Of a stretch of DNA of 64,000 bases, positions 1,926 through 4,759 are shown piece after piece. The notes beneath the pieces were generated by a model. That model had not been told where the DNA came from and did not search any database. It saw only the letters and a list, made by a program, of their open reading frames with translations. The position numbers and the translations under genes are program-made. The stretch is from Cytophagaceae bacterium (lineage in GTDB: Bacteria; Bacteroidota; Bacteroidia; Cytophagales; Spirosomataceae). The stretch is from positions 1-64,000 of the forward strand of contig JAIYBU010000154.1 in NCBI GenBank assembly GCA_027488335.1, in the 5' to 3' direction. Numbering within the stretch: position 1 is the stretch's first letter; every line of letters starts with the position of its first letter.

Positions 1926-3134
1926 CTATTTTAGTTTTCGTCCTTTCCATGTATATTCACCTTGTTTTTGTGCTACGAGTCCAAAAAAGACAACATAGAA
2001 AGGATAAACGATTTGTACAAAAGGAATCAACCAAATTAAAGACTTTTTGCGTAAAAAACTGATAATAAGGCCTAAAAAAATAAATTCTGTCGAAAATTTC
2101 AGTGAAAGTATTAAGAAAAGGGTTTGAGTAGAAATAAAGTTAAAGAACCCAAAGCAGAAAGTTAAAGGCACAACTAAATTTGCTACGAAAATAAAAACCG
2201 CCAAAACAGTAGTTTGCCAGTTATTATAATGTCTCCATTTGCTGGCCCAACGTTTACGTTGGTTATAAAACGACTGCCAGCTCGTGTGAGCTTTAGTGCC
2301 GACGATAGTGGTAGGGTCTTTCAGAAAACGTACTTTATCGGGGTACTTCGCTGAAATTTTATGCATCAAAAATTCATCATCGCCCGAAGCCAAATTCTCG
2401 TTTCCTACAAAACCATTTACGTCATAAAATGCTGATTTTAAATAAGTTAAATTTGCTCCATTGCACATGTTAGGTTTCTGAATAAGCATTGCACAAGCTC
2501 CCGAACCCACCAAACTCGCAAATTCGATGATTTGAGCATTATTACTGATAGAGTAAATGAATGTATGCTTTTGCCCTCGGCTTCGCTTGGGCAGCGGCTG
2601 CGAAGTGGACGGCGTTCTGCTCGAAGGCAAAAACGTCACGGCACAACTTACCAAATACGCCCCAGTTTGGGCTTGAAAATTAGCAATGCTTTCGAGCCAG
2701 CGTTCGCCAACTCTACAATCGCCGTCAGTTGTGGTAATTAATTCTCCATTTGCCAATTTTATGGAAGAATCAATGGCTCGTTTTTTAGGTGATGTATTAT
2801 AGGCTTTTAGAGGTAATTGATTGATAATGAGGCTTATGTTGGTGTTTTTTCTAAACTCTTGAACAATTTTTAAGGTATCATCAGTCGAATCATCATCTGC
2901 AATGATTACCTCAAATTTGTGTTTTGGATAAGTCTGTTTTTCTAAGTCTTGTAGTAAAAAAAGAATGTTTTCAGCTTCGTTCCGTACAGGAATGATAACT
3001 GATATGTTTAAGCATTTATAAGTATTTTCTTTCAAAAAAGAACTGTAACTTGGATTCCTGAGCCAAATAATAATCAAGCTCAAATTTGCCAAAAAATATA
3101 TTCCAGAAATTAGTAATAGAATTACTACAAGCAT
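1926..3134 (-). CDS. Membrane-anchored family 2 glycosyltransferase with an in-frame palindromic insertion
   Basis: The product (402 residues) has an N-terminal membrane helix (MLVVILLLISGIYFLANLSL), a GT-A domain (ISVIIPVRNEAENI, then IIADDDSTDDT, then the TTDGDCRVG metal site) and C-terminal membrane helices after a QRKRWASKW motif, the usual plan of processive inner-membrane GT2 enzymes. I chose the ATG at 3134: it lies one base after the stop of the upstream gene and directly precedes the membrane helix, whereas an ATG at 3206 would overlap that gene by 71 bases. Residues about 168-189 (LPSSRTPSTSQPLPKRSRGQK) look foreign and are encoded by a GC-rich palindrome at 2569-2632. The acceptor is unknown; coupling to the adjacent flippase-like gene suggests lipid-linked glycan synthesis. 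Confidence 0.85.
   Translation of the reverse strand: MLVVILLLISGIYFLANLSLIIIWLRNPSYSSFLKENTYKCLNISVIIPVRNEAENILFLLQDLEKQTYPKHKFEVIIADDDSTDDTLKIVQEFRKNTNISLIINQLPLKAYNTSPKKRAIDSSIKLANGELITTTDGDCRVGERWLESIANFQAQTGAYLVSCAVTFLPSSRTPSTSQPLPKRSRGQKHTFIYSISNNAQIIEFASLVGSGACAMLIQKPNMCNGANLTYLKSAFYDVNGFVGNENLASGDDEFLMHKISAKYPDKVRFLKDPTTIVGTKAHTSWQSFYNQRKRWASKWRHYNNWQTTVLAVFIFVANLVVPLTFCFGFFNFISTQTLFLILSLKFSTEFIFLGLIISFLRKKSLIWLIPFVQIVYPFYVVFFGLVAQKQGEYTWKGRKLK
2569..2632. repeat. GC-rich palindromic element inserted in frame in the glycosyltransferase gene
   Basis: The 64-base segment is about 61% G+C by my count in a much more AT-rich gene. Its ends are inverted repeats (TTTTGCCCTCG at 2569-2579, and its near-complement at 2622-2632, 10 of 11 matching). 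Inside are a second inverted pair (CTTCGC 2581-2586 / GCGAAG 2600-2605) and a tight GCAG-CGG-CTGC hairpin at 2591-2601. It keeps the reading frame and adds a Ser/Pro/Arg-rich stretch between the metal-binding region and the next conserved block. The pattern resembles palindromic elements that insert into coding sequence in other bacteria. Confidence 0.65.
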
Positions 3135-3135
3135 T

Positions 3136-4131
3136 TTAATGTTTTTTAGGTGTGAGTTTGAGTTGCAAGATAAAAGTACTTCCGACAATGATGGGCAGTA
3201 AAACATTGACCAGCCAAATCATAAAGGTTGCGGAGGAAACAGCAGCAATATTTGCCCCAAAAAAACCAAAATAGTAAATCGAAGTCAATTCTCGGATGCT
3301 TAAATCTCCGAAAGTATTAAGTACGGAAATCAGCGTTTTAGTTAGAAAAATGATTCCAACTCCAACTAAAAGTACAGAAATGGGTAGATTTATCTGAAAA
3401 ACTTTAAACATCAACATAAATTGTAATGAAAAAATAAAATATCGGCTGATGGCAATTATAAAAAGCGTTTGTAATTCAGTAAGCGTATAATTTTCTAAAA
3501 TCCCCAAATATTTTTTCAGGTATTCAAAGAATTTATTTTTGGATAAAAACGCATTGATATTTGATAGGTTAAAACTCAGCAAAATACCGAAAATCAAGCA
3601 AATCATTAAAAAAACAATAATAGAAATATGTAAAATCAAAGGACTGGGATTTGCCCAAATGGTAAAAAATAGATACGAAATCGTACCAAAAAGCAGCGAA
3701 ACATACATCTGTAAGCTATTGCCAAGTAAAATTGCCCCAATACTTTGTAGACGTTTGTTGGTTTTGAGCATCAGTATTTTTCCTGCGTAATCGCCAATCA
3801 TCATTGGGGTAGCGGTTGAAAAAGTAAGCCCAATCAAAACTCCTTTGTAGGCTTCTCCAAAACTGGTGTTTTCTATTTTTGAAGCCAATTTTTGCCATTT
3901 CCAAGCCTCAAAAGCCCAATTTATTGGTGTAAGAAGTAGAATAATAATAAGTAAGAATATACTTTTCTGTAAAAATAATGACGTAAAACTTTGTTTGACT
4001 TCATCAAAATGTTCAATTTTTGATTGAATCAAGCGACAAAGTGAGAAAACAACCGTTAAAAATACGATAGTTTTTATCCACCATAACATTCTACTTGACG
4101 TAAGATTTGAGAATTTTGAGTTAATTTGCAT
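3136..4131 (-). CDS. Polytopic membrane protein, lysylphosphatidylglycerol synthase-TM/AglD (UPF0104) type
   Basis: The product is about 331 residues, nearly all hydrophobic, with roughly seven or eight membrane helices. It carries the family pattern EAWKWQKL early, then LTFSTATPMMIGDYAGKILML, and later FLTKTLISVLNTFGDLSIREL. Proteins of this fold lack an obvious catalytic domain and often act beside glycosyltransferases in lipid or glycan transfer. The next gene starts one base after this stop, so the two are very likely cotranscribed. The ATG at 4131 lies two bases from the divergent ruvC start; an internal ATG at 4089 (MLWWIKTIVFLTV), right before the first membrane helix, is an equally good start and would leave 44 bases between the genes. 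Exact activity unknown. Confidence 0.75.
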   Translation of the reverse strand: MQINSKFSNLTSSRMLWWIKTIVFLTVVFSLCRLIQSKIEHFDEVKQSFTSLFLQKSIFLLIIILLLTPINWAFEAWKWQKLASKIENTSFGEAYKGVLIGLTFSTATPMMIGDYAGKILMLKTNKRLQSIGAILLGNSLQMYVSLLFGTISYLFFTIWANPSPLILHISIIVFLMICLIFGILLSFNLSNINAFLSKNKFFEYLKKYLGILENYTLTELQTLFIIAISRYFIFSLQFMLMFKVFQINLPISVLLVGVGIIFLTKTLISVLNTFGDLSIRELTSIYYFGFFGANIAAVSSATFMIWLVNVLLPIIVGSTFILQLKLTPKKH

Positions 4132-4133
4132 CT

Positions 4134-4694
4134 ATGAATCAAGATAAAATAATTTTAGGTGTTGACCCAGGTACACGTTTGATGGGCTACGGAATTATTT
4201 CCGTACAAGGGAGTGCTTTAACGCTTATTCAATACGGTGTTATAAAACTTGACAAATATACTTCACACGAACTAAAGTTAAAGAAAATATTTGAGCGAAT
4301 TACACAGCTAATCACCGAATACCTACCCGACGAAATGGCTATCGAAGCACCTTTTTATGGGGTAAATGTGCAATCAATGCTCAAATTGGGGAGGGCTCAA
4401 GGTGTTGCCATTGCCGCAGCATTAAATAGAGAAGTGCCAATTGTAGAATATTTACCGAAAAAAGTAAAGCAGTCGGTCACAGGAAACGGAAATGCCACCA
4501 AAGAACAAGTGGCTTTTATGTTGGAGCATTTGCTGAAAACAAAATTAGAAACCCAATTTTTGGATGCCACAGATGCGTTAGGCGTAGCTGTTTGCCACTA
4601 TATGCACGGAAAAACGAAGGCATTAACAGGCAACAGCTCAAAGAAAAAGGGTTGGGCTGCCTTTGTGAGCGAAAATCCAGATAGGATGAAGTAG
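4134..4694 (+). CDS. ruvC: Holliday junction endonuclease RuvC
   Basis: RuvC cuts Holliday junctions symmetrically at the end of homologous recombination, working with the RuvAB branch-migration motor (not in this window). The 186-residue product has the RNase H-like fold markers and all four acidic catalytic residues in the expected places: D11 in ILGVDPGT, E71 in MAIEAPFYG, and D144 and D147 in FLDATDALGVAVCH, spaced like E. coli D7/E66/D138/D141. It also has the GRAQGVAIAAA and KQSVTGNGNATKEQV motifs. About 25 extra polar residues at the C-terminus are poorly conserved in such proteins. The start is two bases from the divergent membrane-protein start, so its promoter must lie inside that gene. 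Confidence 0.95.
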   Translation: MNQDKIILGVDPGTRLMGYGIISVQGSALTLIQYGVIKLDKYTSHELKLKKIFERITQLITEYLPDEMAIEAPFYGVNVQSMLKLGRAQGVAIAAALNREVPIVEYLPKKVKQSVTGNGNATKEQVAFMLEHLLKTKLETQFLDATDALGVAVCHYMHGKTKALTGNSSKKKGWAAFVSENPDRMK

Positions 4695-4726
4695 ATTTTT
4701 TCGTTCCCTGAGCGAAGTCGAAGTGA

Positions 4727-4759
4727 ACTTGTGACACACTTCAAAAGCGTGCCACAAGT
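4727..4759. repeat. GTGCCACA-type palindromic repeat, copy 1
   Basis: ACTTGTGACACAC (4727-4739) faces GCGTGCCACAAGT (4747-4759) across a 7-base loop, with two mismatches or wobbles. It sits between the convergent ends of ruvC and hisB, so it could also end transcription. Just upstream, 4704-4722 contains TTCCCTGAGCGAAGTCGAAG, a motif of the kind common between genes in this phylum. The stem core is shared with the hairpins at 22465-22515 and 54054-54109. Confidence 0.55.

Follow-up and report, generated by a model that had tools for sequence, protein, structure and literature searches.

Does the short palindromic stretch found inside a glycosyltransferase gene of an Emticicia relative belong to a family of dispersed elements that also code for protein, or is it an ordinary variable loop of the enzyme? 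The stretch, of 64 bases, occupies positions 2569-2632 of the window (by which we mean the whole 64,000-nucleotide piece of DNA analysed), and the genome from which the window comes consists of 5.0 Mb in 240 contigs, with a completeness of 94.7%. Its closest named relatives are in Emticicia (E. aquatica and E. aquatilis), a genus which we take to belong to the family Spirosomataceae; in the set of 11 Emticicia genomes used here, the window's own genome is G000. The 64 bases are very probably an array, now partly decayed, of two or three REP-like units, each with a core CTTCGRCTHCGCTCAG and a variable complementary stem, lodged in a surface loop of the glycosyltransferase, and the family to which they would belong lies mostly between genes, behind them, and less often inside them.

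The segment and its host gene

The features of the window that bear on this question are the following.

1926..3206, minus strand: host gene, a family-2 glycosyltransferase (GT2); ORF of 426 aa, Pfam Glycos_transf_2 (E 5.5e-20) and orthologues
2569..2632, minus strand: putative composite palindromic insert, in frame, read as LPSSRTPSTSQPLPKRSRGQK; composition, ORF, inverted repeats and AlphaFold2 (AF2) model
2573..2592, plus strand: best-preserved REP unit, GCCCTCGGCTTCGCTTGGGC; three mismatches to the genus unit, the gene strand reading P-K-R-S-R-G
2598..2612, minus strand: candidate second, decayed unit in the opposite orientation, gene-sense CCGTCCACTTCGCAG, read P-S-T-S-Q; unscored comparison by eye with UvrA and PepA arrays
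2619..2632, minus strand: candidate remnant of the beginning of a third unit, or outer arm, gene-sense TTTTGCCTTCGAGC; pairs with 2569-2579
4701..4727, minus strand: further copy of this REP unit, between genes, right after the stop of an ORF (4134-4694) that is presumably ruvC-like; REP HMM E 1.2e-6

A sequence-only reading of this locus had described a GC-rich segment sitting in frame within an AT-rich glycosyltransferase gene, and all of this was borne out: the G+C content is 60.9% at 2569-2632 against 38.2% for the window, whose most G+C-rich 64-base stretch starts at 2579, the ORF has a Pfam match (see above) and the segment lies open within it. The gene probably starts at a conserved ATG at 3132-3134, giving a protein of 402 aa; numbered from the ATG at 3134, LPSSRTPSTSQPLPKRSRGQK corresponds to residues 169-189, in agreement with the approximately 168-189 proposed earlier, although the exact ends of the insertion cannot be fixed and 64 is no multiple of 3. 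All six frames are open across the 64-mer. The nested palindrome of the earlier description is present as inverted repeats, but these are imperfect (arms of 11/11 are 91% and arms of 14/14 are 79% complementary), and the 64-mer folds no more stably than its dinucleotide shuffles (z -1.1; 25/200 as good). In an AlphaFold2 model computed from 22 aligned sequences (mean pLDDT 86.4), pLDDT falls below 50 at residues 174-187 only, within the insert, which is predicted to form a low-confidence or disordered loop leading from a strand (166-168) to a helix (192-217).

The whole 64-mer has no second copy in the genome; a full-length search returned the segment itself and four weak partial matches, two of which are exact intergenic units with the 20-base palindrome GCCTTCGGCTTCGCTCAGGC. 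With an HMM built from 103 intergenic units (the REP HMM), the intergenic copy at 4701-4727 is the top match in the window and 2570-2596 ranks second (E 0.0023), well clear of the third (E 0.99); a match at 2621-2630 (E 14) is not significant alone. With an HMM built from six arrays in UvrA and PepA, the window excluded, the insert is the best match in the 64 kb (E 0.0015) and the intergenic copy, at 4699-4723, is the runner-up (E 0.0021). The two frames of the insert, P-S-T-S and P-K-R-S-R-G, are common to the UvrA and PepA arrays. These E-values (0.0015-0.0023 in 64 kb) are modest, the best unit carries three mismatches and decay is strong in the remaining ones.

The intergenic copy that follows the ruvC-like ORF is adjoined, at 4728-4759, by a different palindrome, ACTTGTGACACAC...GTGCCACAAGT. 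Relatives of this palindrome (e.g., TGTGGCACACTTTTGAAGTGTGCCACA) gave nine matches in five loci, and none for a sorted-letter control; it is perhaps a second family of small palindromes.

A dispersed repeat family, between and inside genes

The unit GCCTTCGRCTHCGCTCAGGC, allowing up to three mismatches, has 144 matches in the 11 Emticicia genomes, 10 of which carry it, and the reversed pattern has one; a first, earlier unit pattern had given four 2-mismatch matches versus one for its control. Further copies of the 64-base element had been looked for on the strength of the earlier reading: it is the 20-base unit that recurs, 22 times in the window's own genome (the copy at 2573-2592 included), and not the full 64-mer. 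Counts are highest in the clade of G000, G004-G007 and G010, with 12 to 33 in each; its sister G008 has none, and the outer species have from two to eight. Gains and losses were left uncounted, since support at the nodes on which the order of gains depends is 38 and 51. In all, 137 of the 144 copies were read (those omitted being the window copy, one each from G005 and G006 and two each from G001 and G003), and 134 were kept after exclusion of three that lacked a neighbouring ORF on one side.

Of these 134 copies, 103 are intergenic, and 31 fall within ORFs whose length is 100 aa or more, several of the 31 being spurious. The intergenic copies lie between convergent (47), unidirectional (51) or, in five cases, divergent gene pairs, and a stop codon is found within 60 nt of 79 of 98 (median distance, 20). 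What is conserved among copies is the apical CTTCGRCTHCGCTCAG with its GC stem, that is, a 4-bp GC-rich inner stem and a loop of about 12 nt; the arms outside the core vary in sequence but are complementary within a copy, at 53% of 12 positions against 35% for shuffled partners, a value reached by none of 1000 shuffles. Because the differing arms are complementary within each copy, many intergenic copies look like predicted terminator hairpins with a common cap. The same tendency is seen for the copies in ORFs (43% against 34%; 0/1000), where the four innermost stem positions are 95% paired across the 31 copies, compared with 68% for shuffled partners, while the stem sequence itself varies. 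Five of the six frames of the unit are open, and the TGA in the sixth is absent when the stem is GCCC/GGGC; a unit can therefore persist in a gene in five frames, or in all six with that stem.

No match at the gathering score of Rfam 15 was found in the nine searched loci that hold copies, and searches of phages and plasmids gave nothing better than E 0.05, to unrelated genomes. PF01797 transposase genes are present in all 11 Emticicia genomes. A core copy was absent from 29 of the 30 PF01797 loci examined (out of 57 matches), and the only locus with one in the examined stretch is a decayed gene; no mobilising enzyme for the units was found at these loci, and RAYT was rejected as the mobiliser for want of flanking copies.

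Units also occur in frame in about a dozen genes, the members located in ORFs falling into 18 site clusters. Those accepted as in-frame hosts include the following.

PepA (M17): units in G000, G004 and G007; arrays in three species
AtuA: units in G000, G004, G005 and G007; unit match
GT4: units in G000 and G004; unit match
UvrA: units in G007 and G010; array in G006
Peptidase C26: units in three species; unit match
Part of a transketolase: in-frame unit; unit match
DUF3799 gene: in-frame unit; orthologue without the unit in G010
Molybdopterin/pyridine-nucleotide oxidoreductase ORF: in-frame unit; unit match
ORF presumed to be GIY-YIG-like, at its end: in-frame unit; unit match
GH88-like ORF: in-frame unit; Pfam score below its cut-off

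The evidence for insertion is of two kinds. UvrA loops could be compared in all 11 genomes, three of which have arrays (e.g., PSTSLGQ...PERGSRG) and eight shorter, unit-free loops; PepA has arrays in three genomes and is unit-free in seven of the 10 matched, G005 giving no match; and the best solved relatives of both proteins show gaps at the positions of the arrays. For AtuA, GT4, C26, the transketolase, the GIY-YIG-like ORF and the oxidoreductase, it is the match to the unit that suggests insertion. The idea of a protein-coding palindromic element, put forward from the window alone, thus finds support in a dispersed family whose units lie in frame in other conserved genes and are missing from orthologues of UvrA, PepA and the DUF3799 gene. 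In two loci (L206 1563 and L277) the UvrA arrays contain in-gene tandem repeats of a 7-residue, QSTSLGQ-like unit, as if the palindrome had been expanded by slippage after insertion. Other candidates were set aside: at L084/L222, L097/L183/L241, L099-2241/L187-1814 and L233 the ORF seems to have been extended too far at its N terminus, L095 resembles chance and L199, in an ORF of less than 150 aa, was left out of the accepted sites. A copy read VFGFAQT in four species, in a protein that we assume to be VCBS-like, could be ancestral protein.

Inversion, tolerance and the GT2 loop

The 134 copies group into 93 site clusters, of which 26 are common to two or more loci, and at six of these 26 shared sites the core has opposite orientations in different species, one of the six (L197/L217/L220) being ambiguous on account of two neighbouring copies. 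The inversion is clearest for L186 versus L218 and L080 versus L216, where arms and flanks align base by base; in the first pair (L186 1523, L218 1540) a 46-base intergenic hairpin is inverted between G004 and G005 within surrounding DNA that is 92% identical. In AtuA the core is flipped inside the gene (L082 1739, L203 1578, L211 1601 and L223 1577), so that the peptide reads WLSEAEA in G000 and GFDFAQP in G004, G005 and G007; all of these readings are open. From this we infer inversion in place by means of the flanking complementary arms, with either strand exchange or template switching between them as a possible mechanism; as an alternative, different members of an inverted pair may have been lost. 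One site (L231 versus L114) suggests that the arms may be created at insertion by copying one flank.

A REP-like array in the GT2 gene would fit a simple sequence of events. Units would arrive by copying or transposition, copying being the most likely route; since the unit is open in five or six frames, an insertion of compatible net length would leave the gene alive, and it would add a flexible loop of about 7-40 residues rich in Ser, Pro, Arg and Gln. Such inserts are presumably close to neutral. More speculatively, the tag-less REP core of Emticicia, with its long, site-specific complementary arms, might constitute a self-inverting protein-coding palindrome, one that inserts in a gene, later flips and so rewrites a surface loop with the frame open, diversifying the loops of housekeeping enzymes; we offer this as a tentative idea that we would sooner doubt than assert.

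If the inserts were instead functional, as selected linkers or as RNA hairpins that tune enzymes or mRNAs, the recurrence of PepA inserts in three species and of AtuA copies in four, and the maintenance of stem complementarity within genes, would be readily understood. However, at one and the same site species differ in how many units they have, in the length and sequence of the insert and even in its orientation, the host proteins are unrelated and the insert is of low confidence in the GT2 model, all of which makes a function of this kind unlikely.

The GT2 loop itself was compared across orthologues as the spacing between the V-x-F and QIIEF motifs, measured by a pattern expression, with three lengths shortened by hand where the expression matched too early. 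The spacing is 32 residues in the window protein; among ten orthologues from the genus it is 14-18 in six, 26-28 in three and 40 in G004, and in 12 readable orthologues from other genera it is 10-17, with one at 28. The loop of the window protein is thus longer than most, but its length varies anyway. When the REP HMM was run on 30 GT2 loci, the top three matches all fell in this one loop, in G000 (E 0.0043), G005 (0.021) and G004 (0.13), the next being at 0.66; in three species, therefore, the loop probably contains sequence derived from the repeat. A different, heptamer-like stretch, similar to AAGACACTAAGGCACAAAGATTCAAAGGCACAAAAG and unrelated to the palindrome, occupies the loop in G010 and G006 (L009 and L010), and it is only weakly repeated in the genus (six matches in its own genome versus two for the control). 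Since the loop varies also in repeat-free species, and holds another repeat in two, part of its change in length may reflect ordinary loop evolution.

Could the whole segment have arisen in that way, as an ordinary hypervariable surface loop of low complexity in which point mutation and slippage produced a GC-rich palindrome that resembles the repeat by chance? The range of 10-40 residues across the family, the unremarkable fold z-score and the uniqueness of the 64-mer in the genome would all be expected of such a loop. Against this, the insert gives the second-best REP-HMM match in the window, it is detected by an HMM of arrays from other genes, two sister species have REP-HMM matches of their own (weak, but next in rank) in the corresponding loop, and there are clear in-frame units in other conserved genes; we therefore hold a chance origin to be quite improbable and a partly decayed REP-like array to be the better account. 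An assembly artefact, conceivable in a draft genome of 240 contigs and 94.7% completeness in which repeats can be mis-assembled, is hardly credible given that the reading frame is kept and that independent genomes, G004 and G007 (a 4.8-Mb contig) among them, contain comparable copies in frame.

Relation to other palindromic repeats

The core is found in 112 of 395 Bacteroidota genomes and in 65 of 171 genera, with two matches in all for the reversed pattern; the highest count in one genome is 164, a number that G059 attains with 82+82 exact core copies. A sample of 30 loci with 40 core copies was drawn from the phylum (29 loci from other genera and one from G000). Among the 39 copies from other genera, which include near-identical neighbours in L298, a C/TGTC tag lies on the CTGAG side in 22 and on the opposite side in five. 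In Emticicia, a search of 15 nt to each side found C/TGTC next to the CTGAG end in one of the 134 copies and on either side in three, and CCTC on either side in 10. The outer arms in other genera pair at background (27% against 26% for shuffled; 170/1000 shuffles as high). ORFs of at least 150 aa overlap five of the 40 copies; three look spurious and two, in other Bacteroidota genera, look like real in-frame cases (L318 1501, LSGVEG in an ORF of 991 aa; L320 1501, LSAVEG in an ORF of 487 aa). To judge from these two, Emticicia may not be the only genus with coding copies.

In-frame palindromes in conserved proteins have been known from Rickettsia and, later, as REPs in some other bacteria, and Emticicia adds a case. 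When its sister species (named culture-collection strains among them) are compared at shared sites, copies are seen to be present, absent or inverted, so that the arrival of a palindrome, the formation of its arms and the tolerance or use of the result by the protein become testable in laboratory strains. Neither the core sequence, in five spellings, nor a report of Emticicia palindromes present, absent or inverted at shared sites was found in the open-licence papers searched.

In plastid spacers, small inversions of hairpin loops place the loop in both orientations in related genomes; the Emticicia element differs from these as a dispersed bacterial repeat that is, once, inverted inside a coding gene. 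REPs mobilised by RAYTs are likewise dispersed short palindromes, some as inverted pairs, but the GTAG tag of RAYT-linked REPs is near only five of the 134 copies, and one of 30 PF01797 loci has a core. PARCELs (palindromic amphipathic repeat coding elements) occur in tandem, as units of surface repeat proteins, whereas the Emticicia copies are short insertions in enzymes. Like them, PARCELs are coding palindromic repeats spread among bacteria, according to the accessible text of the paper describing them (PMC2996958).

The earlier reading had likened the segment to the palindromic elements of Rickettsia. As far as the accessible text of the review goes (PMC2229807), RPEs are elements of 105-146 bp, and RPEs and WPEs (Wolbachia palindromic elements) occur in intergenic DNA as well as in frame within conserved genes that are unrelated to one another. 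The likeness in behaviour stands: palindromes are in frame in conserved genes of Emticicia (UvrA and PepA, with unit-free orthologues; to judge from the match to the unit, also AtuA, GT4 and others), apparently as tolerated peptide loops, and also lie between genes. A true RPE or WPE moved between phyla would behave in just this way (PMC2229807, same text), but the units are of about 20 bp, often several together (the 64-bp composite), in place of an element of 105-146 bp, which sets them apart by description, and the core is widespread in Bacteroidota, making a local origin simpler; such a transfer is accordingly most improbable.

A close parallel is provided by the CGTC-tagged REPs, which, in the accessible text of Di Nocera et al. 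(2013; PMC3733652), are short palindromes, mainly intergenic, 3' of genes and often paired, with a CGTC (or TGTC/CCTC) tag at one end of a stem-loop whose stem is of 8-9 bp, with A-T in the first two pairs, and whose loop is of 4-5 bp. Bacteroidetes are listed there among the hosts, and the main text, in that accessible form, names none of Emticicia, Spirosoma and Chitinophaga. Since the same source reports REPs within ORFs, uvrA included, the occurrence of REPs in genes is itself a known phenomenon (PMC3733652). Like them, the Emticicia family has most of its copies in intergenic DNA, between genes that are convergent or unidirectional, and some inside genes, and its core carries the C/TGTC tag in other Bacteroidota genera (22/39); in Emticicia, by contrast, the tag is replaced by site-specific complementary arms flanking the core, the conserved GC-rich inner stem has 4 bp in place of 8-9, and the loop is of about 12 nt rather than 4-5. 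On these sequence features, the class to which the window segment is best assigned is not that of the RPEs: the family is a Bacteroidota REP-like one, related to the CGTC-tagged REPs.
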